From Peribacillus simplex (GTDB lineage: Bacteria; Bacillota; Bacilli; Bacillales; DSM-1321), in NCBI RefSeq assembly GCF_900156045.1, contig NZ_FTMX01000001.1:682001-746000 (forward strand): 64,000 nt of DNA. The letters run 5' to 3'. The notes beneath the pieces were generated by a model that saw nothing but the letters and a program-made list of their open reading frames with translations, was not told the origin of the DNA and ran no database searches. A program made the translations under genes and the position numbers. Below, piece by piece: positions 3,858 through 32,365 of this stretch; position 1 is the first letter of the stretch; every line of letters starts with the position of its first letter.

Positions 3858-4169
3858 TTATCGAACATTACTTTTCCTAACCTCGATAAATTCGCGCATT
3901 TCCTCTTTCGAAATTCCTGCCCCCATAACATCCAGCATGATTTCCAACCACTCTTCATCCATCCCCTTGTCTGCTTGTTCATTCAACAGAGCATCGACCT
4001 TAATACAAAGGATTTTAGCGATTTTTTCCAAAACTAATATAGTAGGGTTTGTTTGAAGGTTTCTTTCCAGTGAGCTTATATAGGATTTGGCAACGCCGGA
4101 TTTTGAGGAGAGCTCACTAATTGACATTTTCCTTTCTTCCCTAAGCGACTTAACTCGGTAACCTATCAT
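3858..4169 (-). CDS. sinR: SinR-type biofilm master repressor
   Basis: 103 residues. An N-terminal XRE helix-turn-helix (residues about 1-60) contains 'SGVAKSYISSLERNLQTNP', nearly the sequence of Bacillus subtilis SinR. The C-terminal Sin domain (about 70-98) contains 'DEEWLEIMLDVMGAGISKEE', the surface used for tetramerisation and for SinI binding. SinR represses matrix genes in B. subtilis. The start is the ATG at 4169, because AGGTGTGG lies 5 nt before it; the GTG three codons earlier overlaps that binding site. It is divergent from the exopolysaccharide operon, which fits direct repression. No sinI lies next to it, but a SinI-like gene exists at 31604. Confidence 0.9.
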   Translation of the reverse strand: MIGYRVKSLREERKMSISELSSKSGVAKSYISSLERNLQTNPTILVLEKIAKILCIKVDALLNEQADKGMDEEWLEIMLDVMGAGISKEEMREFIEVRKSNVR

Positions 4170-4647
4170 TTTTACCACACCTAATCATTAATATAAAAAT
4201 TATATACTCATTTAAACTATCATTTTTAGTTTACACATTTTCCTTTCATTTTTAATGATAACTAGGAACTAAAATACTTGACATTATTAAATGTATAAAC
4301 TGATTTTTCTGTTTTGATAGGCATTTAGTTAGGTCATTTTCTAGAATATAAGGTAAAGTTTATAAATCATATAAGAAAAATTGGGATTTGTTGTCTACTT
4401 AGGTTTATTGAAATTTAAGTCACAAATATTCTGGAAAATGGGTTTTATAGATGTGATCAATGCAATATTTTAAAAAATAGAAATTATTTCCTTTGTATTG
4501 CTGTTTTCTTTTTTGTAAAATTACTTTGGCATTTGAAAAGTATTCTTAGAATGTAAGTTTCATGTAAATTTCCTTGAAAATACATAAAAATAGGTAATAT
4601 ATATGGTATAATGCAATAGGTCATTTTTAACATATCAGGAGGATAAA
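4170..4647 (+). promoter_or_regulatory. Divergent regulatory region between sinR and the EPS operon
   Basis: 478 bp of AT-rich sequence without a gene. A good extended -10, TGGTATAAT, lies at 4604-4612, placing an EPS transcription start near 4619; no strong -35 is present, so the promoter may need an activator or rely on the extended -10. T-rich elements near 4500 resemble half-sites of the SinR consensus (GTTCTYT) but none is exact. AGGAGG stands before the first EPS gene. Confidence 0.55.
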
Positions 4648-5337
4648 ATGGAAGAAACTATTAGTATTAAAGATATTTTTAAAACATTAAAGAAACGTTG
4701 GAAGCTAATCATGCTGCTAACATTAATTGCTGCTTTGATTAGTGGAACAATTTCTTATTTCTTATTAACACCGGTTTACCAATCTTCAACACAGATCCTC
4801 GTTAATCAGAAACAATCGGAGAACCAATTGGACTCGACTCAAATACGATCTAATATCGACATGATCAATACATACAGCGTGATCATAAAGAGCCCTGCCA
4901 TTTTGGAGATGGTGATTGATGAACTTGAACTAGAACAAAGCGTAGAACAACTTAGTCAAAAAATCACTATTAACAGCCAAGAAAATTCGCAGGTTTTCTC
5001 TTTAACGGTTCAAGATAGTAATCCATCGCAGGCTGTAGAAATAGCTAACACGGTATCTGAAACTTTTCAAAAGGAAATAAAGGACATAATGAACGTCGAT
5101 AATGTTAGCGTTCTTGCCAAGGCAGAAATTAAGGAGAATCCTACGCCAGTAAAGCCTAATCCAGTATTGAATATCGCTATTGCAGTGGTGGTCGGATTGA
5201 TGGCTGGAGTCGGCTTGGCATTCCTACTGGAGTATATGGACAATACGATCAAGGACGAGGATGATATAGAGAGACTACTGGAATTGCCTATCCTTGGATC
5301 GATTCAAAAAATTACACAGGTACATTATAAAGGATAA
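4648..5337 (+). CDS. Wzz-type chain-length regulator / BY-kinase activator (CapA/EpsA-like)
   Basis: 229 residues. A Wzz domain begins at residue 1 ('ISIKDIFKTLKKRWKLI'), with a membrane helix at about 18-40, an extracellular region rich in coiled segments, and a second helix at about 173-195 preceded by the proline-rich 'NPTPVKPNPVLN'. This is the membrane half of a Gram-positive tyrosine-kinase pair: it controls polysaccharide length and activates the cytoplasmic kinase encoded next. The short cytoplasmic tail after the second helix is where the kinase docks in the family. First gene of the operon. Confidence 0.9.
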   Translation: MEETISIKDIFKTLKKRWKLIMLLTLIAALISGTISYFLLTPVYQSSTQILVNQKQSENQLDSTQIRSNIDMINTYSVIIKSPAILEMVIDELELEQSVEQLSQKITINSQENSQVFSLTVQDSNPSQAVEIANTVSETFQKEIKDIMNVDNVSVLAKAEIKENPTPVKPNPVLNIAIAVVVGLMAGVGLAFLLEYMDNTIKDEDDIERLLELPILGSIQKITQVHYKG

Positions 5338-5373
5338 TCCGTATAAGAAGCAGTATGAAAGGAAGCGGGATTT

Positions 5374-6051
5374 TTGAGAAGTAAAGATAAAAAACAGGTG
5401 AATTTGATTGCACAAACTAATCCTAAATCACCTATCACTGAACAATATCGATTAATTAGAACGAATATTCAATTTGCCTCAGTCGATAAAGACATCCAAA
5501 CCATTGTGGTAACTTCTTCGGAGCCTAATGATGGGAAATCGACCACCGCTGCAAACCTCGCCATTGTTTTGGCACAGGAGGAAAAAAAAGTGGTGCTTGT
5601 GGATGCAGACTTAAGGAAACCATCGGTTCACTATGCTTTTAGCCTTAGTAATATAGAGGGACTTACGAGTGTGCTAACCAAGAAAATGAGCATAGAAAAA
5701 GCACTTTTCAAAACGAATGTGCCTAATCTGGAAATTCTGACGAGTGGACCGATTCCCCCTAATCCTTCAGAATTATTAAATTCCAAAGCGATAGAAACAG
5801 CTATTGATGAATTAAAAGGAATGTATGATTATATCATTTTTGACACACCGCCGGTTCTTGTAGTGCCGGATTCCCAGATTGTAGCCAATAAATGTGATGG
5901 AGTGATCATGGTAGTGGCGAGCGGCAAGACAAACAAACAAAGTGCAGTAAAAGCAAAAGAGCTTTTACTCAAAGCTAATACATCATTGCTTGGAGTCGTT
6001 TTGAATGGCGTTGAAACGGATAACAGCAATTATTATTACTATCAATCTTAA
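5374..6051 (+). CDS. Bacterial tyrosine kinase (CapB/EpsB-like)
   Basis: 225 residues. It has the BY-kinase P-loop 'SSEPNDGKSTTAANLA' (about residues 49-64), a Walker A' motif 'VVLVDADLRKPS', Walker B 'IIFDTPP', and a C-terminal tyrosine cluster (YYYY) that is autophosphorylated in this family. The cytoplasmic kinase works with the preceding membrane activator to control polysaccharide synthesis by phosphorylation cycling. The start is TTG, 36 nt after the previous stop, with AAAGGAAG upstream. Length is normal for stand-alone Gram-positive kinases. Confidence 0.92.
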   Translation: MRSKDKKQVNLIAQTNPKSPITEQYRLIRTNIQFASVDKDIQTIVVTSSEPNDGKSTTAANLAIVLAQEEKKVVLVDADLRKPSVHYAFSLSNIEGLTSVLTKKMSIEKALFKTNVPNLEILTSGPIPPNPSELLNSKAIETAIDELKGMYDYIIFDTPPVLVVPDSQIVANKCDGVIMVVASGKTNKQSAVKAKELLLKANTSLLGVVLNGVETDNSNYYYYQS

Positions 6052-6187
6052 AGAAAATAAAACAATTTTCGACAAAATAACACCCTGTTTAATGGCAGTT
6101 TTATATGCTACTATTAGTCAGGGTATTAATTCCTATCTGATTTCTTAGTGATTAAGCCTATTATCCCACAAAGGAAGTGTGTGAAAA

Positions 6188-6952
6188 TTGATTGACATAC
6201 ATTGTCACATTCTCCCAGGAGTTGATGATGGATCCGCTGACATGAAGGAAAGCTTGAGCATGGCAAAGAACGCGGCAAAAGCAGGAATCACCCATATATT
6301 TGCCACGCCACATCACTTAAATGAGAAATATGTAAATGTTAAGAGTAGCATCATTGACCGTGCAGTGCGGTTAAATGAGAGTTTACAACAAAACAATATA
6401 CCTCTTATCATCCATCCCGGTCAAGAAGTAAGAATACACCGAGACATATTTACTTCACTTGAAAACGAAGAAATCCTAACGTTAGACAATAATGGTACAT
6501 ATTTACTGCTAGAGCTTCCGTCGGGAAGGGTTCCTACATACACACAAGACGTGATTTATGAGCTGTTACTGAAAGGAATCACACCAATTATCGTACATCC
6601 GGAGAGAAATAAGGAATTGATTGAAAATCATAAACTATTATTTGAATTGGTCCAGGAGGGCGCGTTAACTCAACTTACCTCTGGCTGTATCATCGGGGAC
6701 TTCGGTAAAAGTATTCAATCATTTTCGAAAAAGATAATCGAACATAATCTGGCACATTTTATTGCAACAGATGCCCATAATATAGGCTCGAGAGGGTTCA
6801 CGTTACAACAAGCCTATGAAACAATTACTAAAGTATATGGGATAGAACGTACATTTTATTTTAAAGAAAATGCTGAACAGCTATTAAAGGACCAAAGTCC
6901 TGCTGTTGAAAAACCAGTACCATTCAAAAAGAAAATATTAGGAATCTTTTAG
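6188..6952 (+). CDS. PHP-type tyrosine-protein phosphatase (CapC/YwqE-like)
   Basis: 254 residues beginning with the metal-binding PHP signature 'MIDIHCHILPGVDDGS', followed by further metal ligands in 'FATPHH', 'HPERN' and 'ATDAHN'. CpsB/CapC phosphatases are manganese-dependent and remove phosphate from the BY-kinase tyrosine cluster, so this closes the kinase/phosphatase pair of the preceding genes. The start is TTG with AAGGAAGTG upstream. The 136 bp before it contains no gene. Confidence 0.92.
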   Translation: MIDIHCHILPGVDDGSADMKESLSMAKNAAKAGITHIFATPHHLNEKYVNVKSSIIDRAVRLNESLQQNNIPLIIHPGQEVRIHRDIFTSLENEEILTLDNNGTYLLLELPSGRVPTYTQDVIYELLLKGITPIIVHPERNKELIENHKLLFELVQEGALTQLTSGCIIGDFGKSIQSFSKKIIEHNLAHFIATDAHNIGSRGFTLQQAYETITKVYGIERTFYFKENAEQLLKDQSPAVEKPVPFKKKILGIF

Positions 6953-7394
6953 ATTTATAGTAAGTTAGGAAACGCTTTCATTATTATAATAAATAATATT
7001 CGTTAATGTGTAAAGTTTTTTGGGGGTCATTTGAAGTATTGGATTCGGTGTAAAAGGAATTAATAAGGAGATAGATTCGATTGAAAAGGTTGATGATAAT
7101 CCGAAATCTATAAAGAAAGTACTGCGTTACATACAACAAGTCGCCCCCTAAGTCTTGTTAAATCAATTAGAGACGAGCTTGGCAAAGTCTCTAAAGAAAA
7201 GAAAAGAAGCTCTACAGAAGAAGGAAAAGGAACTATGAAAGTCATTTGAAATATTAATGACAATACAAGGTTATGTTTTGGAATAAATTCATACCGGTTT
7301 TCATTTAAAAGTAAAGGCCTAGAACATTAGATTATTGCTTTTCCGGTATTAAAAAGTGAGTATCCTGATTTCATTATTAAAGGGGGAAATTTGG
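6953..7394. other. Intergenic region with cre-like site before the dehydratase gene
   Basis: About 440 bp without a gene. Besides the cre-like site it holds a TATAAT at 6984-6989 and a widely spaced inverted repeat (ATACCGG at 7291, CCGGTAT at 7343). Lysine-rich codons around 7080-7240 interrupted by stops hint at a decayed reading frame of unknown type. Confidence 0.4.
6967..6980 (+). promoter_or_regulatory. Candidate CcpA operator (cre)
   Basis: AGGAAACGCTTTCA differs from the cre consensus TGWAANCGNTNWCA only at its first bases and contains the palindromic core GAAACGCTTTC. A TATAAT lies just downstream, so carbon-catabolite control of the following EPS genes is plausible. Confidence 0.5.
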
Positions 7395-9224
7395 TTGGCC
7401 TACCGAAATCGACTAACACTACTGGCACTATTAGATTCCTTAATTGTATTATCGGCCATATACGTAAGTTATTTAGTACTACATCCATATTTAGAAATAT
7501 TTAAGCTAACAGCACTCTTAGTCAGTTCAGTCGCTCTATTAATAAGCCATCATATTTTTGCTTCGATTTATAAGCTATATAAAAAGGCTTGGGAGTATGC
7601 AAGTATCGGGGAATTGATATCCATAGTAAAAGCCGTAACCCTATCAGTTATCACTGTAGTTATAATTCAGGTTTTGGTTTTTCAGGATGTATATGTAAGA
7701 GCTATGGTATTAACGTGGATGATGCATGTAATCCTTATTGGTGGATCCCGTTTTTCATGGAGAATGCTGCGTGACCGTTTTATAAACAATCAATTAGATG
7801 TAAAAAATACATTGGTTATTGGCGCTGGATCAGCTGGGACCATGGTTGTTCGTCAACTACTGAATAATCATGAAACGGAACTCAAGCCTATTGCATTTAT
7901 TGATGACGATCCTAAGAAAGATAAATTAGATATCTTGGGTATACCTGTTGTTGGCAACTCTAAACATATTCCTGAAATGGTTGAAAAATATCATATTGAT
8001 AACATTGTCATTGCAATTCCTTCATTGAGTAAAAAAGAATTAAAGGTCATCTTTGATGAATGTGTGAAAACAAATGCAAAAACACAAATCATGCCGATGA
8101 TTGAAGATATTATGTTAGGAAAAGTAGCCGTTAATCAGTTTAAAGAAGTAGAAGTAGAAGATTTATTGGGAAGAGAACCTGTTGAATTAGATATGAATAG
8201 TATCTCGGGATACGTTACTGGTATGACAATTCTAGTAACGGGTGCGGGCGGCTCTATTGGTTCGGAAATTTGTCGTCAAATATGCAGATTCTCTCCAAAA
8301 AAAATTTTACTGCTCGGTCATGGTGAAAATAGTATTTATCAAATTGATATGGAATTGAAAAGATTGTATTCAGATCAAATAGAAATCATACCGGTTATTG
8401 CAGATATACAGGACCGAGAAAGAATATTTGAAGTAATGGACACCCAAAGACCAGATGTTATCTATCATGCGGCTGCACATAAACATGTGCCACTTATGGA
8501 GTACAATCCTCATGAGGCCGTAAAAAATAATGTTTTGGGAACTAAAAACGTAGCAGAAGCAGCAGATATTTATGGAGTATCCACTTTTGTTATGATCTCA
8601 TCCGATAAAGCTGTTAACCCAACGAATGTAATGGGGTCAACGAAGCGGATTGCTGAGATGGTCATACAACAGTTAGATAAACATAGTACAACAAAATTTG
8701 TAGCCGTCCGATTTGGAAATGTTCTTGGAAGCAGAGGAAGTGTAATCCCTCTATTCAAAAAGCAAATTCTAGCTGGTGGTCCTGTTACTGTTACGCACCC
8801 TGAAATGACACGTTATTTTATGACAATCCCTGAAGCATCCCGGTTAGTTATTCAAGCTGGATCTCTTGCAAGAGGAGGAGAAATCTTTGTTTTAGATATG
8901 GGGGAACCTGTGAAAATTGTAGATTTAGCTACTAATCTAATTCAATTATCGGGTTACTCAATTGAGGAAATCGGAATTGAGTATTCTGGTATACGGCCTG
9001 GAGAAAAAATGTATGAAGAACTACTAAATGAAAATGAAGTCTATGCAAAGCAAGTTTTTCCGAAGATTCATATTGGAAAAGCGGCTGTGGTTGAAGGAGA
9101 AGTTCTTTGGCAGTTTATTGATAGTCTCCCAGAGAAACAAACAGCTCTGTTGAAAGAACAGTTAATAGAGATTGCCAATGCTAAAGAAGGATTACAACAA
9201 GCTATGAAAGAAGCAATCTACTAA
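7395..9224 (+). CDS. UDP-GlcNAc 4,6-dehydratase (EpsC/CapD/PglF type)
   Basis: About 609 residues. Four N-terminal membrane helices (first ~130 residues) precede a CoA-binding-like Rossmann domain ('VIGAGSAGTMVVRQLL') and a C-terminal extended SDR domain with 'VTGAGGSIGSEICRQI' and 'HAAAHKHVPLME'. Family members of this length make the 4-keto-6-deoxy sugar that starts UDP-bacillosamine synthesis. The TTG at 7395 is chosen because AGGGGG lies 8 nt before it and the protein then begins MAYRNRLTLL, as in EpsC proteins; a GTG at 7356 is also in frame. It supplies the aminotransferase and acetyltransferase encoded at 17.3-19.1 kb. Confidence 0.9.
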   Translation: MAYRNRLTLLALLDSLIVLSAIYVSYLVLHPYLEIFKLTALLVSSVALLISHHIFASIYKLYKKAWEYASIGELISIVKAVTLSVITVVIIQVLVFQDVYVRAMVLTWMMHVILIGGSRFSWRMLRDRFINNQLDVKNTLVIGAGSAGTMVVRQLLNNHETELKPIAFIDDDPKKDKLDILGIPVVGNSKHIPEMVEKYHIDNIVIAIPSLSKKELKVIFDECVKTNAKTQIMPMIEDIMLGKVAVNQFKEVEVEDLLGREPVELDMNSISGYVTGMTILVTGAGGSIGSEICRQICRFSPKKILLLGHGENSIYQIDMELKRLYSDQIEIIPVIADIQDRERIFEVMDTQRPDVIYHAAAHKHVPLMEYNPHEAVKNNVLGTKNVAEAADIYGVSTFVMISSDKAVNPTNVMGSTKRIAEMVIQQLDKHSTTKFVAVRFGNVLGSRGSVIPLFKKQILAGGPVTVTHPEMTRYFMTIPEASRLVIQAGSLARGGEIFVLDMGEPVKIVDLATNLIQLSGYSIEEIGIEYSGIRPGEKMYEELLNENEVYAKQVFPKIHIGKAAVVEGEVLWQFIDSLPEKQTALLKEQLIEIANAKEGLQQAMKEAIY

Positions 9225-9364
9225 GAGGAGAATGAAAAAATTGCTTGTAAAGTAAGGGCTTGATTTTCCTCTTGTTTAATTAAATAAAGAAATGGTGTAA
9301 ATAAATTGTTTAAATAAGTCATTAAAAATAAAATTTCTAGAATTTTTATATAAGGGAAACTTAC

Positions 9365-10609
9365 ATGTGGAAAAAATTAAATAATATATTTTCTAAATTA
9401 TCATGGTCCTTGTTTGGGAATATAATTTATGCATTGTCCCAATGGATTATTATTACTATAATTGCCAGATTTGGCTCTACTGCTGACCTTGGAATCTACT
9501 CTCTTGGATTAGCAATTACTGCTCCCATTGTACTTTTTTTTAGCTTCCAATTAAGAACCTTTTTAGCGACTGACAGTAATAATGAATATAATTTCGCTCA
9601 ATATTTTGGTGGGAGAATTATACACTTAACTTTTTCTTTCATATTGATAATTCCTATAGCATTTTTTTATAGTAACAATATTGAAACTGTTTTAGTTATC
9701 ATATTATTGGGAATTATTAAGTATTTTGAAGGTTTAAGTGATATTTGTATGGGGTTTTATCAAAAGAAAAGCAAGATTGATATAATAGGAAAATCCCAAA
9801 TGTATAGAGGGATTTCTAGTATAATTGCAGTAGGTATCCTTTATTTTTATACTCGAAGCCTTATTTTCTCTCTTCTGGGGTTACTAATTGTAATGATAGT
9901 AAGATTAGTGAATTATGATCTGAAACATTTGAAACCGTTGGGGGAATATACTCCTGTATTTGATCGCAGTTCGATACAATTAATGAAGATGGCATTTCCA
10001 TTAGGAGTAGTTTCGTTGATTAGTTCCTTGAACACTAATATCCCAAAATACTTTCTTGAATATTTTTCAGGCACAGAAGAGGTAGGAATATTTTCAGCAT
10101 TATATTATATATTAATTGCTAGCAATATGCTCATTACACCAATTTCGTTACTGGTTGCCCCTGGAATTGCTAATGCATACAAACAAAATAAAATCAAAAA
10201 GTTTTTGAAGGTAAACTTGCAATTATCTATGGTCTCAGTAATAGTTTCTTTATTAATAATTACTTTAATTGTTCTACAGGGAGAATTTATACTGAATATT
10301 TTATATGGTAGTAAGTATACTCCCTATAATGATTCTTTTATAATAATTTCATCTTCCCTGATATTTGGTTTTCTTACAACCTTTTTCACTGTGTCCATTG
10401 TTGCTGCAAGAGCTATTCAAATACAACCCATAATGAATTTAATAGTAACTATTGTTACCATAATTAGTAGTTACTATTTCATTAGTACAGATGGTATTAA
10501 TGGAGCATCATATACCCTATTAATCTCTCGTATGTTTCAAGCTTTACTTAGTGGCAGTTTATTGTTTTATATTATATATAAAAAAAATAAATTATATCAT
10601 GTCAATTGA
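9365..10609 (+). CDS. Wzx-type polysaccharide flippase
   Basis: 414 residues, nearly all membrane helix (about 12 spans), with the Polysacc_synt/MATE layout and an N-terminal amphipathic 'KKLNNIFSKLSWSLFGN' start typical of lipid-linked oligosaccharide flippases. It would move undecaprenyl-linked repeat units outward for polymerisation. Very AT-rich codon use, lower in GC than the dehydratase gene before it, as is common for horizontally exchanged Wzx/Wzy genes. Confidence 0.82.
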   Translation: MWKKLNNIFSKLSWSLFGNIIYALSQWIIITIIARFGSTADLGIYSLGLAITAPIVLFFSFQLRTFLATDSNNEYNFAQYFGGRIIHLTFSFILIIPIAFFYSNNIETVLVIILLGIIKYFEGLSDICMGFYQKKSKIDIIGKSQMYRGISSIIAVGILYFYTRSLIFSLLGLLIVMIVRLVNYDLKHLKPLGEYTPVFDRSSIQLMKMAFPLGVVSLISSLNTNIPKYFLEYFSGTEEVGIFSALYYILIASNMLITPISLLVAPGIANAYKQNKIKKFLKVNLQLSMVSVIVSLLIITLIVLQGEFILNILYGSKYTPYNDSFIIISSSLIFGFLTTFFTVSIVAARAIQIQPIMNLIVTIVTIISSYYFISTDGINGASYTLLISRMFQALLSGSLLFYIIYKKNKLYHVN

Positions 10610-10972
10610 TTATCGCAATTGTGATAAATTTTTTTTTGTGAAGATAAAATCATTTGTTGATAAACACCAAAATTTGACCATGGAATTTCGGTGAAAATAA
10701 TTTGTGGGCACATAACCGATGTGAGTTTATTTACTAGGGTAGTGGGCAATAGAATCGTATTTAATCTTGTTAGATTAAGCGAAATTAATGATTAAAAAGC
10801 AAAGAGTTATGTCTCCGATTGCGATATTTTTTAGTTGACACCCTATAAAGCCTGTCATGGAAATGGTCTCTTTATTAGAAAAAGTGCCTGAGCTCATTAT
10901 CCGAGAGAAGTTATCCCGAGTCGCTAAGTGACATTGCATGTGATATTTCTATCTTAAGGGAGGTTTTATAAA
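10610..10972. other. Intergenic region with a possible gene remnant
   Basis: 363 bp without an intact gene. Around 10820-10930 one frame reads 'EMVSLLEKVPELIIREKL' between stops, which looks like a piece of a decayed coding sequence, but I cannot name its family. AAGGGAGG before 10973 belongs to the next gene. Confidence 0.35.
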
Positions 10973-11938
10973 ATGATTTTTCAAATCAAAAGTACGTTAA
11001 GAAAAATTTCTAATAGAAATAAATCAATAAAAAAACTATACCTATCAGCTAATAAAATTAAAGTTAGGGCAGTATCTAAAATAAGTGATGAAAGATTTGC
11101 TAAGATGAAATATAAAGAAAATACAGGTAAAAAATTGAATTTAGAAAATCCTGTATTATTTAATGAAAAATTATGGTGGTTGAAAATTAATAACAGAGAT
11201 CCTTTATTAACTATTTGTTCCGATAAATATAAAGTTAGAGAGTATATAAAAAAGTGTGGATTAGAACAAATATTGACCAATATTTATGGGGTATACAATA
11301 ATGCTGATGAAATTAAATTTGAAGAACTGCCAGATAAAGTTTTCATCAAATGCAATCATGGTTCAGGTACAAATATAATATATGATAGGAATACCTTTTT
11401 TGATGAAGAGAAATTTAAAAGGAATTTTAATTATGCTTTGAAACAAAACTATTATTTACAATCAAGAGAGTGGAATTATAAAAACATTAAACCTAAATTA
11501 ATAGTTGAAGAAGTATTAGAAAGTGAAGATAATAGTTCATTAATAGATTATCGATTTCTATGCTTTAAAGGAAAAGTAAAGTTAATATTTGTAGATATAG
11601 ATACAACTAATCCTGATGGATCTCATAGTGCAGATGCTCGAAGAAATATATATGATACAAATTTTAATCATCTAAATGTGAAAGTTGGAAGGGAACACTT
11701 TGATCAATCCTTAGTATCCAAACCTCAAAACTTAGATAAAATGATTGAATATGCAGAGATACTATCTAAACCGTTTCCTCACTGTAGGGTAGATTTGTAC
11801 AATATTAAAGGGAAAATTTATTTTGGAGAAATAACATTTTATCACGGTGGTGGTTCACAAAATATAACTCCGCTAGAGTGGGACAAAAAAATGGGTAGCT
11901 GGATAGATATAGAAAGTGAAACAGTAGTGAAAAAATAA
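10973..11938 (+). CDS. TupA-like ATP-grasp protein (glycan modification)
   Basis: 321 residues. Recognised by the ATPgrasp_TupA pattern: 'LFNEKLWWLKINNRDPLLT', 'CSDKYKVREYI', 'VFIKCNHGSG' and the late 'HCRVDLYNIKGKIYFGEITF'. Members occur in polysaccharide clusters; TupA itself is linked to teichuronopeptide synthesis, so peptide-like or amino-acid decoration of the glycan is possible. The N-terminus (~35 residues) is basic. GGGAGG lies 11 nt before the ATG. Confidence 0.75.
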   Translation: MIFQIKSTLRKISNRNKSIKKLYLSANKIKVRAVSKISDERFAKMKYKENTGKKLNLENPVLFNEKLWWLKINNRDPLLTICSDKYKVREYIKKCGLEQILTNIYGVYNNADEIKFEELPDKVFIKCNHGSGTNIIYDRNTFFDEEKFKRNFNYALKQNYYLQSREWNYKNIKPKLIVEEVLESEDNSSLIDYRFLCFKGKVKLIFVDIDTTNPDGSHSADARRNIYDTNFNHLNVKVGREHFDQSLVSKPQNLDKMIEYAEILSKPFPHCRVDLYNIKGKIYFGEITFYHGGGSQNITPLEWDKKMGSWIDIESETVVKK

Positions 11939-12075
11939 TTTTATAAAAATATAGTTAATTGTTTTTTGCTTATTAATTAATTTAATTCATTACTTTTATA
12001 CTTAAAGGGTAAAAATGAAATGTTTTATTAAATAAAATGAAGTAATAGAAATACATTAGGTGATGTGATAAAAAT

Positions 12076-13197
12076 ATGTCTAAGCTGAAAATTATCCACA
12101 TTATAGTTGGATTAAATGTGGGTGGCGCAGAAACTATGCTTTTTAAGCTGTTAAAAAATGCTGACCATACAAAGTTTGATTTCGAAGTTATCTCCATGAT
12201 GGATGAAGGGTTTTTCGGTCCTAAAATAAGAGAGTTAGGAATACCAGTACATACTCTAGGGATGAAAAGAGGTATAATTAATCCTTTTTTTATAAAAAGG
12301 GCTAGGTCTCTTGTTAAAGATGCACAGATTATTCAAACATGGATGTATCATGCAGATTTATTTGGTTTTTTAATTAAAAATCGTTCCACTAAACAAAAAC
12401 TTATATGGGGTATAAGGCATTCGAATCTTGAGAAAAATATGAATAAAAGTTTGGTATTAAAGATTGCTAAATTAAATGCATTACTTTCCAAAAAGGTAGA
12501 TTCTATAATCAGTTGCTCAATAAATGCATCAGAAATTCATGCGGAATTTGGTTACAGTACTTCTAATATGATAACAATACCAAATGGTTTTGAATTAGAT
12601 ACATTTTATAAAATACCTAATGCAAAGAGATTAATTGAGGAAGAAATAAAATTACCGAAAAATAAACCGCTTATAGTACATGTAGGAAGATGGAATGTCC
12701 AAAAGGATTACCCGAATTTAATAAAGGCAATTCATTTAATTCAGTTAAAGAGGTCAGATGTGAACTTTTTACTATGTGGAGTAAATATTGATGAAAATAA
12801 TAAAGAACTAATAGGATTATTAAAGCAAAATAAGGTTGAAGAAAATGTGTTTTTACTTGGTAAAAGAGAAGATGTACCGAAAATTCTCTCTGCTGCTGAT
12901 ATATTGATTTCATCATCCTCTGGAGAAGGTTTTTCAAATGTTATTGGTGAAGCTATGTCTTGTGAAACTCCATGTATTGTAACTGATGTTGGTGATTCGG
13001 CATTTATTGTCGGTCCTTATGGTGTAGTGGTTCCTCCTCGTAATGCTGAAATGCTTGCTCGTGCAACAAATGAATTTTTAAATAAAACCGAAGAAGAAAA
13101 AAAATTATTAGGTAAGCAAGCAAGAAAAAGGGTTATTGAGGAATTCGAAGTAAAGAAAATTGTAAGTAAATTCGAAGATCAATATAAATTCAAATAA
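12076..13197 (+). CDS. GT4 family glycosyltransferase
   Basis: 373 residues with the GT-B fold: N-terminal acceptor half beginning '[22 protein letters not shown]' (the GGAE motif), and a C-terminal donor half with '[19 protein letters not shown]' and '[20 protein letters not shown]', where the E-x7-E motif binds the nucleotide sugar. It would add one sugar to the lipid-linked repeat unit on the cytoplasmic side. The sugar specificity cannot be read from sequence. It is followed after 13 nt by the epimerase gene. Confidence 0.88.
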
Positions 13198-13210
13198 AGG
13201 GGTAATTATA

Positions 13211-14215
13211 ATGAAAGTATTAGTTACGGGTGCAGCTGGTTTCATAGGCTCTCATTTATCAAAAAAGTTATTAACAAACGGTATTACGGTTATTGGAATC
13301 GATAATTTAAATGACTACTATGATGTGAATTTAAAAAAATCTCGACTTTCGTTGATAGAGGATAAAAATTTTTATTTTGAGAAAACGAATCTCGAAGATC
13401 GCGAGAGCATTAATGCTATTTTTGAAAAATATATGCCAGACGCAGTTGTCAACTTAGCTGCTCAAGCAGGCGTACGCTATAGCTTAGAGAATCCACATGC
13501 ATACATTGAATCAAACATAGTGGGTTTTACTAACATTTTAGAAGCATGTCGCCACAACAAAGTTGGACAACTAATTTATGCCTCCTCGAGTTCAGTATAT
13601 GGTGCAAATACGAACCTTCCATTTTCTGTTCATGATAATGTGGATCATCCAATTAGTTTGTATGCTGCAACGAAGAAAGCAAATGAATTAATGGCACATA
13701 CATATAGTCACTTATATGGCTTGCCTACTACTGGACTTCGGTTCTTTACTGTATATGGTCCATGGGGTAGACCAGACATGGCCTTGTTCTTGTTTACAAA
13801 GGCAATTATCAACGGTGAACCTATAAAAGTATTTAATAACGGAAATATGATGCGCGACTTTACGTATGTTGATGATATTGTTGAAAGTATTTTTCGCTTG
13901 ATTCAACGAAAGCCAGAACCAAATTTAGAATGGAGCGGAAAGAAACCTGATCCAGGAACAAGTTATGCTCCATACAAGGTTTATAATATAGGAAATAACA
14001 ATCCAGTAACATTGATGGAGTTTATCAATGCTATCGAAGAAAAATTAGGAATTGAAGCTAAGAAAGAGTTTTTACCACTTCAAGCCGGTGATGTTCCGGA
14101 AACATATGCGGATGTTGAGGATTTATATCGTGATATCAATTTTAAACCTCAAACGGATATTAAAGATGGAATTAGCAACTTTATTGATTGGTACAGAGAA
14201 TATTATGGAGTGTGA
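13211..14215 (+). CDS. UDP-glucuronate 4-epimerase-like SDR
   Basis: 334 residues, extended SDR fold. NAD-binding '[12 protein letters not shown]' at residue 5, then '[14 protein letters not shown]' (typical of the UDP-GlcA 4-epimerase/CapI group), catalytic Y-x3-K in 'YAATKKANE', and substrate motif '[14 protein letters not shown]'. It would interconvert UDP-glucuronate and UDP-galacturonate. The adjacent dehydrogenase gene can supply uronic acids, so an acidic exopolysaccharide is likely. Confidence 0.88.
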
Positions 14216-14222
14216 TTTAGAG

Positions 14223-15503
14223 ATGAATAGAAAAATAGCAGTAGTTGGACTTGGATACGTAGGATTACCAGTAGCAGTTGCTTTTGGTAAAACACATCGC
14301 ATTGTTGGTTTTGATATTAATGAACACCGTATTAATACCTTAATAGATGGAATAGATTATACAAACGAAGTAGAGACTAATGATCTCGTAGCAGCTGAAA
14401 TTGAGTTTACCAATGATGGGTCTAGATTGCTTGATAGTGATTTTATTATTGTAGCTGTTCCAACCCCAATTAATGAAAATAAGCAACCAGATTTAACGCC
14501 ATTACTAAAGGCTTCAGAAACAGTAGGTGCAAATCTATCAAAAGGTACAATTGTTGTATATGAGTCAACTGTTTACCCTGGGGCAACAGAAGAAGAATGT
14601 GTTCCAGTACTGGAGAAAGCATCGGGCCTAAAAGCAGGGAAGGACTTCTTTGTAGGGTATTCACCTGAACGTATTAATCCAGGAGACAAGGAGCATAAAT
14701 TTACAACAATTACCAAGGTTGTATCAGGACAAAATGAAGATGTATTAGAAACTGTAGCTAGTGTGTATGGATCTGTAGTAGAAGCAGGTGTTTACCGTGC
14801 TAGTTCTATTAAGGTAGCAGAAGCTGCAAAAGTTATTGAAAATACCCAACGTGATCTTAACATTGCACTGATGAACGAGTTATCCATTATATTTGACCGT
14901 CTAAATATTGATACGAATGAAGTATTAAAGGCGGCTGGAACAAAATGGAACTTCCTGAAATTTTCCCCTGGTTTAGTTGGGGGACATTGTATTGGTGTTG
15001 ACCCATATTATTTAACTCATAAAGCAGAAAGCGTAGGTTATCACCCCGAAGTTATTTTAGCGGGCCGCCGAATTAATGATGAAATGGGTAAATTCATTGC
15101 AACTTCTTTGGTTAAACAAATGATTCATAAAAATATGCCTATACAAGGGGCAAGAGTAACTGTACTGGGTCTTACCTTTAAGGAAAATGTACCAGATCTT
15201 CGTAATTCTAAAGTAATAGATGTTATTCGAGAACTAGAGGAGTTTGGAATTGAGGTACAAGTCACAGATGCAATGGCCGACTTTGGTGAAGCAGTAAAAG
15301 AGTACGGGGTTGAATTAATTCCTCATAATCAACTTAAACCAGCAGATGTAGTTGTTTTTGCTGTAGCCCACGATGATTATATTCAAAAAGGGTGGGAACA
15401 ATTTAGTCAATTACTTAAGCATGGTAAAGGAATAGTTGTTGATATTAAGAGTGTGTTAGAAAGAGAAAGCTGCCCTGATAATATTACTCTTTGGAGATTA
15501 TAG
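14223..15503 (+). CDS. UDP-sugar 6-dehydrogenase (WecC/TviB type)
   Basis: 426 residues. N-terminal Rossmann motif 'VVGLGYVGLPVAVAFGK', central domain with the catalytic-cysteine region 'GLVGGHCIGVDPYYLTHKA', and C-terminal UDP-binding domain with 'VLGLTFKENVPDLRNSKV'. The GGHCIGVDPYY form is typical of UDP-N-acetylhexosamine dehydrogenases (TviB/WbpA/WecC) rather than UDP-glucose dehydrogenase, so the product is probably a UDP-HexNAc uronate. The ATG at 14223 is chosen because homology begins there; an upstream in-frame ATG lies inside the epimerase gene. 7 nt after the previous stop. Confidence 0.87.
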   Translation: MNRKIAVVGLGYVGLPVAVAFGKTHRIVGFDINEHRINTLIDGIDYTNEVETNDLVAAEIEFTNDGSRLLDSDFIIVAVPTPINENKQPDLTPLLKASETVGANLSKGTIVVYESTVYPGATEEECVPVLEKASGLKAGKDFFVGYSPERINPGDKEHKFTTITKVVSGQNEDVLETVASVYGSVVEAGVYRASSIKVAEAAKVIENTQRDLNIALMNELSIIFDRLNIDTNEVLKAAGTKWNFLKFSPGLVGGHCIGVDPYYLTHKAESVGYHPEVILAGRRINDEMGKFIATSLVKQMIHKNMPIQGARVTVLGLTFKENVPDLRNSKVIDVIRELEEFGIEVQVTDAMADFGEAVKEYGVELIPHNQLKPADVVVFAVAHDDYIQKGWEQFSQLLKHGKGIVVDIKSVLERESCPDNITLWRL

Positions 15504-30276: not shown

Positions 30277-30610
30277 TTTTCTCTTCCTCCCGTTGATATC
30301 CTTTTTGTTATTTTTGGCAAAAGGTGAATTTCTATCCTTTTTATTTACTAATTAGTAAATGGATAGGGATTAAATTAATTGCAGCCATAAAACAGCTCTA
30401 TGGAATAGGTAGGGATAATTACTTAGCATTATTATCTTGGTATAAAAGACTTTTGGGTATAATGGAATATTTTGAATTTAGGTAATTTGTATGATTTATA
30501 GTAAACTATATAGTAAAGAACAGATATTAATTTATAAGATCTAGCCCATTATAAAAATAGTGAATAATACAGTTAATATTTTTGCAGATTTGAAGATACT
30601 TTAATATGAA
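30277..30610. other. Intergenic region upstream of purF and cassette A
   Basis: About 330 bp of AT-rich sequence containing the divergent control regions of purF (minus) and the first small-membrane-protein cassette (plus). No G-box purine aptamer pattern was found. Nothing else is recognisable. Confidence 0.4.
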
Positions 30611-30658
30611 GATCAAGCAAAGGGACTTCGCAGAAAGCGCTGTCAGATAGCTGCCATC
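30611..30658 (+). promoter_or_regulatory. Conserved structured leader, copy A
   Basis: 48 nt, 44 of them identical to the leader at 32145. The constant parts are GATCAAGCAAAGGGAC and TGTCAGATAGCTGCCATC; the differences fall in a hairpin between them (GAC..TCGC / GCG..GTC). It ends about 20 nt before the start codon of a small membrane protein. I cannot assign it to a known riboswitch class. A cis-acting RNA or protein-binding leader is likely. Confidence 0.55.
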
Positions 30659-30679
30659 AAAATATAAGGAGAATATTTG

Positions 30680-30817
30680 ATGACAAAAAACAAATTTATT
30701 ACGTTCGAGGAAGCTTATGAAAAGAAAAAAAGAAGTAAGAAAATTTTTATTGGGTCTTATATTACTATTATTTTAATTTTAATTTCTTTATTGACTTTTT
30801 TTCTTGGAAAATCATAA
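30680..30817 (+). CDS. Small single-span membrane protein, copy A
   Basis: 45 residues: a charged N-terminal half (FITFEEAYEKKKRSKK) and one membrane helix (about 22-43, IFIGSYITIILILISLL). AAGGAG lies 9 nt before the ATG. The paralogue at 32214 differs at about ten positions, all conservative. Function unknown; inside-positive topology (K/R-rich N-terminal half in the cytoplasm) is expected. Confidence 0.72.
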   Translation: MTKNKFITFEEAYEKKKRSKKIFIGSYITIILILISLLTFFLGKS

Positions 30818-30830
30818 CGGGAGTTAAATA

Positions 30831-31154: not shown

Positions 31155-31507
31155 CTTAGGGTAAATAAATTAAAACTGAATCTCTTAGTCCACTTGAATG
31201 AAAATATTATTTTTTTGGAATAGTAATTTCGGGATTATTTATGCTATTATAAATCTACTTTTAATAAAAAAGTTGTAAAGAAAGCGTGTTATACCAGTGT
31301 TTTCCTATTATAATGTCACTTTTTGATGAATGATGTTGAAAAATGACAGAAAAAAACGAATAGTATTAAGAGCTATTATTACGTTTTTAAGTATAATTAA
31401 CATTAATATAGTTTTAATTAAGGGGAAATTTTTTAGGGCATCATGGTTTAAACAGGGAATTCAAGAGATTTATTAATCTTGGAGAATAATTTATGTTAAA
31501 TATTCTT

Positions 31508-31583
31508 GAGAAAGGCAAACCTATTGAAAAGTAGGGACGCAAAATTACAGGTCTAAGGCCTTGCTAAGACGGCTGTTTTACCA
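31508..31583 (+). promoter_or_regulatory. Class I cyclic-di-GMP riboswitch (GEMM-I)
   Basis: All hallmark parts are present in order: GGCAAACC, a P2 helix closed by a GAAA tetraloop (CCTATT-GAAA-AGTAGG), then GGACGCAAA, the P3 arms ACAG/CTGT with GTCTAAG, and the closing strand GTTTTACC. It ends about 20 nt before the start codon of a SinI-like gene, and the GGGTGGG ribosome binding site follows at once. No terminator lies between aptamer and start codon, so control of translation initiation is the simplest model. Confidence 0.87.
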
Positions 31584-31603
31584 CAAGTTGGGTGGGATTT
31601 ATC

Positions 31604-31708
31604 ATGGAAGCTAACAATGAACGGGAAGAATGGGTTTATCTAATGTTAGAGGCTAAAAATCTAGGATTATCTATTGAAGATGTGCGGAAGTTCATAAAAG
31701 GAAAATGA
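31604..31708 (+). CDS. SinI-like anti-repressor
   Basis: 34 residues, essentially one Sin dimerisation domain: 'EREEWVYLMLEAKNLGLS' then 'IEDVRKFIKGK'. B. subtilis SinI has the same pattern (EWVxLMxEAKxxxIS-x-EEIRKYL). The C-terminal region of SinR from this window (DEEWLEIMLDVMGAGIS) is the matching partner surface. SinI titrates SinR and so releases matrix genes. GGGTGGG lies 6 nt before the ATG, directly behind the c-di-GMP aptamer. Shorter than SinI (57 residues) because it lacks the N-terminal extension, as in other SinI-domain proteins. Confidence 0.85.
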   Translation: MEANNEREEWVYLMLEAKNLGLSIEDVRKFIKGK

Positions 31709-31743: not shown

Positions 31744-31774
31744 AGAGGAGGCTGTTATACAGTCTTCTTTTTTT
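31744..31774 (+). terminator. Terminator of the sinI-like transcript
   Basis: AGAGGAGGCTGT pairs with ACAGTCTTCTTT around a three-base loop, followed by a T-run. It lies 36 bp behind the SinI-like stop codon. Confidence 0.7.
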
Positions 31775-31972: not shown

Positions 31973-32144
31973 GCGCTTAATTAAACTGGTGCCTAGGCAG
32001 GATTCAGCATGATAATCATAGAATTTAGTTGTTGTACATAATGCGTTAGTCTTAACCTTCTACATACTTAAGAAATATAGCCTATAGAAAAATAGTTAAT
32101 AATACTTAAATATTTTTAGCGTAGTGCCGATACTACAATATAAA

Positions 32145-32192
32145 GATCAAGCAAAGGGACCTCGCAAAAGGCGATGTCAGATAGCTGCCATC
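32145..32192 (+). promoter_or_regulatory. Conserved structured leader, copy B
   Basis: 48 nt matching copy A (30611) without gaps. Its hairpin has an additional U-A pair where copy A has U-C, and the rest of the stem is kept, which supports a structured RNA. It ends 21 nt before the start codon at 32214. Confidence 0.55.
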
Positions 32193-32213
32193 AAAATAGA
32201 AGGAGATTATTTG

Positions 32214-32351
32214 ATGACAAAAAATAAATTCATTACGTTCGAGGAAGTTTATGAAAAGAAACAAAGAAGTAAGAAAATTTTTATTGGGACTTATATTACT
32301 ATTACTTTAGTATTGATTTCATTAATGACTTATTTTATGGGACAAGCATAA
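32214..32351 (+). CDS. Small single-span membrane protein, copy B
   Basis: 45 residues: FITFEEVYEKKQRSKK followed by a membrane helix (IFIGTYITITLVLISLM). Paralogue of the protein at 30680; similarity covers leader, gene and terminator, so the whole transcription unit was duplicated. GAAGGAG lies 9 nt before the ATG. Function unknown. Confidence 0.75.
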   Translation: MTKNKFITFEEVYEKKQRSKKIFIGTYITITLVLISLMTYFMGQA

Positions 32352-32365
32352 TATGAATTATCGAA

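Follow-up and report, generated by a model that had tools for sequence, protein, structure and literature searches.

A c-di-GMP-I riboswitch directly precedes a SinI anti-repressor gene in Peribacillus simplex and in many of its relatives

In Bacillus subtilis, a SinI-domain anti-repressor and the repressor SinR, which is composed of an HTH and a Sin domain, form a switch whose output is the matrix, and c-di-GMP is often said to have little part in it. The Peribacillus simplex locus described here resembles this system in its SinI-domain anti-repressor, its SinR-like protein with an HTH and a putative Sin domain, and its presumed matrix output. It differs in that sinI and sinR are adjacent in B. 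subtilis and 27 kb apart here, and in the c-di-GMP-I riboswitch (Rfam RF01051), which is absent there. The same wiring has been predicted in B. methanolicus MGA3, where a transcriptome study of 2015, based on RNA-seq leaders and Rfam, listed a putative c-di-GMP riboswitch before sinI ("(c-di-GMP)-sinI", Table 4) and described sinI as encoding the antagonist of the biofilm regulator SinR (PMC4342826). In the passages of that article dealing with sinI, the prediction occupies one sentence and one table row, without a platform, a distribution or the sinR context. A c-di-GMP-I riboswitch has also been linked with SinR in Paenibacillus, and the pertinent section explains it differently, as an antisense RNA on a SinR-like gene (PMC9943018). 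In B. thuringiensis, likewise a member of Bacillales with c-di-GMP riboswitches, the described targets are an adhesin (cbpA) and a chemoreceptor (mcpA) and not an anti-repressor; array data are cited in which sinI is up at high c-di-GMP, and the relevant passages name no riboswitch for sinI (PMC7793685). The earlier note on this DNA was not aware of any description of the wiring, a view that the B. methanolicus entry overturns; the wiring is not wholly new, and it is the scale that looks new. In the parts of the open PubMed Central literature covered (subscription papers and preprints lay outside the scope), no mention was found of a platform stem, of an order-wide distribution or of a B. subtilis remnant, nor was any experiment on the RNA considered here. 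The riboswitch–sinI arrangement is real and well conserved, with one earlier prediction found.

The window, meaning the whole 64-kb stretch of DNA that was analysed, contains a single Rfam match at gathering threshold. It is the c-di-GMP-I (GEMM-I) aptamer at 31504-31585 (+), found by cmscan of the whole window, full length and with two flagged non-standard pairs; its score of 68.2 bits is well above the gathering score, 35. The complete GEMM-I aptamer that the earlier note had read from the letters was thereby confirmed by an Infernal search, and the motifs it had named (GGCAAACC, a GAAA loop, GGACGCAAA and GTCTAAG) all lie within the alignment. The aptamer carries G at model column 11 (31514), which we take to be position 20 (G20), the ligand-specificity position. 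A candidate P1 5′ strand, CUUG at 31505-31508 (+) with its partner CAAG at 31584-31587, can be read from the sequence. The Rfam match ends 18 nt before the ATG of a 34-codon gene at 31604-31708 (+), whose product matches PF08671 with 45 bits (cut-off 31.4, E 9.2e-12) and shows no HTH match in Pfam, and the Sin-domain gene and its direct cis position behind the aptamer both hold as first described. The top sequence matches of this SinI in the PDB are SinI chains (E 0.0016), while the NCBIfam equivalog NF046031, which represents the B. subtilis type, was not reached (24.8 of 80 bits). An intrinsic-terminator-like stem shortly 3′ of the stop codon (31744-31770, +; one found, 0.2 expected in shuffles) indicates that the riboswitch–sinI unit is probably monocistronic. 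Two copies of a gene of about 45 codons flank sinI (30575-30826 and 32109-32360, both +), 85% identical over 252 nt and sharing the conserved leader AAGCAAAGGGAC...AGATAGCTGCCATC; no further Rfam match at E ≤ 1 was obtained in this region. Among eight genomes searched, the flanking gene lies at most about 2.5 kb from the sinI gene of the window kind in G000, G001, G005, G010 and G022, G029 has no more than a 32-nt match elsewhere, and none was found in G003 and G035.

The 6.08-Mb genome contains three RF01051 matches, two of which directly precede a SinI gene. It also contains seven places that match PF08671 (E ≤ 1), of which two fall within SinR proteins, and encodes three GGDEF proteins; a plasmid search gave no match. 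The second riboswitch–sinI unit, on contig C13, is convergent with its own sinR, and a terminator-like inverted repeat is visible by eye between the two genes. The third riboswitch (contig C15, L001 1501-1863) precedes an 86-codon frame with a zinc-ribbon-like CxC...CxxC pattern and no Pfam match above cut-off. A chance adjacency of aptamer and sinI was ruled out, because two of three riboswitches in the genome precede SinI and the pairing recurs in relatives. In a set of 32 genomes (30 of the genus, the own genome included, and two of the same family), a SinI domain lies 36-64 nt downstream on the same strand of 47 of 104 riboswitches, and a riboswitch is present at 47 of 90 short SinI frames. 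At least one such pair occurs in 28 of the 32 genomes, and none in G002, G011, G015 and G023. Five genomes with 8 to 17 riboswitches each (G008, G009, G018, G027, G032) stand outside this count. The pairs fall into class A, 27 loci beside a convergent SinR, to which the C13 unit belongs, and class B, the window kind, 20 loci without SinR within 1 kb. The class-B SinI coding sequence has a pN/pS of 0.33 (22-codon core, 19 copies). Its ATG is replaced by ATA in G022 and by ATC in G033 (L053, L059), so that translation there may begin at an uncommon start codon or at a GTG further upstream.

Beyond this set, 16 of 129 riboswitches pair with SinI in 27 further genomes, which comprise G008, G009 and G027 together with 24 genomes that each represent a different further family of the order (G018 and G032 are in neither set). 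Nine of the 24 have a riboswitch–SinI pair, six of these as a riboswitch–sinI–sinR operon. The DNA signature of the platform stem described below was found in 111 stretches of a named genome collection (84,980 species), and the following details rest on the 80 of them that were listed. Nearly all belong by title to Bacillaceae-type genera. For 79 of them, the start of a SinI-domain ORF lies within 45 nt (Pfam E ≤ 0.001 in 79 of 79), the exception being a Flavobacterium record. An aptamer lies upstream of the stem in 69 of the 80, of which 50 were used to build the model R1 and 19 more score at least 96 bits with it; the rest consists of nine loci from the B. pumilus group, the Flavobacterium record and a single locus truncated in the stored sequence. 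Within the order, 63 of 397 genomes and 19 of 135 genera carry the signature, and a reversed control signature had none among the matches listed for these 397 genomes.

The likely partner of the window SinI is a SinR-like repressor, SinR-B, encoded at 3858-4178 (-), with an HTH_3 domain above cut-off (50.6 bits) and a Sin domain below it (28.3 bits against 31.4, E 1.5e-6). Divergent from sinR is the first part of an exopolysaccharide cluster (4648-15503, +), with genes for Wzz, an AAA_31 kinase-like ATPase, CpsB/CapC, Polysacc_synt_2, a flippase-like Polysacc_synt, a TupA-like ATP-grasp protein, a glycosyltransferase, an epimerase and a UDP-glucose/GDP-mannose dehydrogenase. Pfam thus verified the divergent arrangement claimed earlier for the genes to 15503; later genes extend to 27993. 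Of the 32 genomes, 18 encode a close homologue of this SinR (79-99% identity), and the class-B pair is present in all 18, versus 2 of the 14 without SinR-B (G021 and G029, both divergent in sequence). This co-occurrence supports the suggested link to the exopolysaccharide-associated SinR and favours the protein at 3858-4178 as the most likely target of the window SinI, with the qualification that the two genes are linked and their joint inheritance counts for less than independent evidence would. The B. subtilis-type SinR operator motif, GTTCTYT, was not present between sinR and the exopolysaccharide genes. The gap between them (window 4150-4380) contains the blocks ACCTAACCATTAA, AACTAGGCACTAAAA and GGCATTTAGTTAGG, conserved in 18 genomes, which are candidate operators differing from GTTCTYT.

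The way in which the aptamer may act on sinI is best seen in class A and in the leaders of the sinR-linked type. In both, the final CC of the aptamer begins CCUGAAAUAC, complementary to GUAUUUUAGG, which extends into the ribosome-binding site, and a stem joining the aptamer CC to the ribosome-binding site points to a translational ON switch. Seventy-three such leaders were gathered without selection for the stem, L251 and L260 with their broken aptamers having been excluded beforehand, and 71 were scored (in G038 and G055b the SD was not recognised). At least 10 contiguous pairs from CC to SD occur in 50 of the 71 and are missing in 21, compared with a 10-pair stem frequency of 0 to 1.4% for shuffled linkers. 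A further comparison covered 33 distinct stems chosen for having the stem, with stemless leaders and four that have a shortened arm set aside; in it, 99.4% of cells are paired, as opposed to 29-54% when the partner is slid, and two-sided changes are seen in two stem pairs, both from the single leader L295. In alignment A1, the rows L143, L172, L182 and L203 are without the aptamer 5′ part. Taken together, the class-A and sinR-linked leaders argue for an SD-sequestering helix. A P1 helix UCAG/CUGA in the sinR-linked type would share CUGA with the stem; at least four pairs are possible in 31 of 40 leaders, and the mean complementarity was reached by none of 400 shuffles. Peribacillus class A lacks such complementarity (259 of 400 shuffles did as well), and class B shows it weakly (31 of 400).

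The accessibility of the SD was modelled in ViennaRNA by forcing the ligand-bound aptamer, with 60 shuffled linkers per leader, in 20 of the 27 class-A leaders and in 19 class-B leaders (G021 skipped). In class A, the bound state raised accessibility in 19 of 20 leaders, on average from 0.39 to 0.71, with a mean gain of 0.18 for shuffled linkers; individually, only 5 of the 20 were equalled by no more than 3 of their 60 shuffles, and the class-A copy of the own genome was unremarkable (equalled by 51 of 60). In class B, accessibility rose from 0.35 to 0.62 over the 19 leaders, a rise comparable to the one that shuffled linkers produce (mean gain 0.22), and in the window from 0.20 to 0.43 (47 of 60 shuffles as good). 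The window leader also folds no better than its shuffles (z -0.27). Its candidate SD-sequestering helix would pair UUACC at the aptamer end (31578-31582, +) with GGUGG (31591-31595, +) in the ribosome-binding site GGGUGGG (31590-31596, +). This pairing is kept in 72 of 75 cells over 15 distinct, hand-typed class-B segments, a sample that excludes G021 as well as G012 and G034, which have a one-base deletion, and its covariation does not reach significance (182 of 500 shuffles; 15 segments). The alternative helix CCAC/GUGG did worse. A transcription terminator as platform was rejected, for no terminator-like stem was found between aptamer and sinI.

We regard it as reasonably probable that the window c-di-GMP-I riboswitch is a translational ON switch of a monocistronic sinI, whose product titrates SinR and derepresses exopolysaccharide synthesis. 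Without ligand, UUACC would pair with GGUGG; binding of c-di-GMP would draw the C residues of UUACC into the bound aptamer, freeing the ribosome-binding site, so that SinI is made, and SinI would then titrate SinR, most likely the protein at 3858-4178, and derepress the exopolysaccharide cluster. We infer the ON direction of the window copy from the overlap between the last strand of the aptamer and the ribosome-binding site and from analogy with class A; the SinR target and the exopolysaccharide output are likewise inferred. The same parts could also form an OFF switch, in which c-di-GMP binding lowers SinI. Such a reading would suit a class-B platform that neither accessibility nor covariation establishes; moreover, the pertinent parts of published work name both an 'on' (cbpA) and an 'off' (mcpA) c-di-GMP riboswitch in B. 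thuringiensis (PMC7793685) and describe homologous cyclic-dinucleotide aptamers serving as ON or OFF switches (PMC9262584). However, class A on average points to ON, and the missing terminator-like stem between aptamer and sinI also disfavours OFF. In addition, the SD-complementary stretch overlaps the C residues that are presumed to contact the ligand, so binding should open the stretch. An OFF switch is therefore considered unlikely. A change of ligand or a loss of function in the window class appears very unlikely, since the window aptamer keeps G at column 11 and scores well above the gathering threshold. The two non-standard pairs of the window aptamer would fit such a change, and column 11 is A in 5 of 20 class-B aptamers (L043, L046, L049, L057, L060), which makes ligand drift within the class possible; a G20A variant binds 3′,3′-cGAMP, according to the passage concerned (PMC6274999). 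By eye, L119 has C at this column.

With regard to the target, a working riboswitch might serve a SinI directed at another Sin-domain regulator, for example the SinR of C13, and the seven PF08671 places of the genome, including the two in SinR proteins, offer room for this. It is nevertheless a somewhat unlikely arrangement: class-A sinI adjoins its own SinR, and class-B sinI tracks SinR-B, evidence that is not independent given the linkage of the genes. Scarcely credible is an action of the riboswitch as an antisense RNA on sinR, as the pertinent section proposes for the Paenibacillus c-di-GMP-I riboswitch (PMC9943018). The convergence of the C13 unit with sinR would permit it, but an inverted repeat resembling a terminator separates sinI from sinR there, the window sinR is 27 kb distant, and a SinI gene stands directly 3′ of the riboswitch.

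The translational ON switch proposed above would act on a transcript whose own control may differ between the types. According to the earlier note, the riboswitch replaces the Spo0A-driven sinI promoter of B. subtilis. Spo0A boxes (0A boxes) were counted in the 160 nt upstream of aptamers, with expectations from first-order random sequences. In the 39 sinR-linked leaders, 15 boxes are exact (0.8 expected), and allowing one mismatch gives 73 (18.5 expected). These counts speak against replacement; riboswitch and Spo0A boxes seem to coexist at these loci. Class-A leaders have 19 boxes (6.2 expected), and the 20 class-B leaders 10 with at most one mismatch (5.5 expected) and none exact, and over the whole window boxes are at chance level (191 found, 191.3 expected). 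Replacement could perhaps hold for the window type alone. The C13 locus and many relatives combine a 10-bp anti-SD stem with 0A-like boxes upstream, which suggests a two-key gate there, with Spo0A~P needed for transcription and c-di-GMP for translation.

The distribution at sinR loci was followed with the B. subtilis SinR sequence as query (threshold E ≤ 1e-40). Among the 397 genomes of the order, 79 have SinR orthologues at this threshold, and 70 of 80 places were examined, 30 loci in a first set and 40 in a second. Outside Bacillus sensu stricto, a c-di-GMP-I aptamer above gathering score lies upstream at 18 of 20 first-set loci; at the second-set loci, R2, an aptamer-only covariance model, gives a match in 25 cases (one weak) and no match in 15. 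An ORF for SinI follows 42 of 44 aptamer places read at sinR loci (Pfam 42 of 42), the others being the broken L251 and L260. At L251 (about 2331-2480), sinR is preceded by a shortened c-di-GMP-I aptamer (42.4 bits) that has a Bacillaceae-1 RNA (RF01690) next to it, and at L260 the aptamer match is stretched over 183 nt. The aptamer is absent at all 10 Bacillus sensu stricto sinI loci and at all six B. pumilus-group named loci tested, and RF01051 had no match in the control genomes, B. subtilis included. The sinI leaders of Bacillus sensu stricto retain the hairpin. In the subtilis group, GTCATGGCCGGA(C/T)TGGC stands in register with the aptamer 3′ end (p 5e-5 to 2.5e-4 in five of five near-related leaders). 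For the pumilus group, the in-register test gave p 0.01-0.03 only, and all 14 near-related leaders have GACGCAA, a motif picked post hoc, at position -57 or -58. Because of the hairpin, the in-register result and this motif, these leaders may be read as carrying remnants of a decayed ancestral riboswitch, and B. subtilis looks like a lineage that lost it. Within the same family, the other genera g63 and g127 have intact copies. The model R2 recovered no Bacillus sensu stricto sinI leader at E ≤ 5, with the exception of the pumilus-group copy L166 (11.3 bits, E 1.3). In a SinR tree made by a quick method (68 rows, L279 and L293 left out), the riboswitch label changes nine times, and 32 of 64 inner branches are open and eight starred; given this poor resolution, the tree does not separate gain from loss of the riboswitch.

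Summarizing, the Sin switch of Bacillaceae may ancestrally have been a two-key device, in which Spo0A~P drove transcription from the sinI promoter while translation of SinI depended on c-di-GMP, sensed by a leader riboswitch whose anti-SD stem is conserved. The c-di-GMP key would have been lost in Bacillus sensu stricto, B. subtilis among them, where a decayed riboswitch was kept, and Peribacillus would have gained a second copy, that of the window, for an exopolysaccharide locus with its own SinR, apparently without the Spo0A key. We are evenly divided on this scenario as a whole, and a c-di-GMP key on the Sin switch, lost by B. subtilis, is the interesting part of the picture. If it is true, the B. 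subtilis sinI leader gains an explanation. If the riboswitch–sinI unit is ancestral, a direct RNA step would join c-di-GMP to the best-studied Gram-positive biofilm switch in much of Bacillaceae, and the model organism B. subtilis would be the exception.
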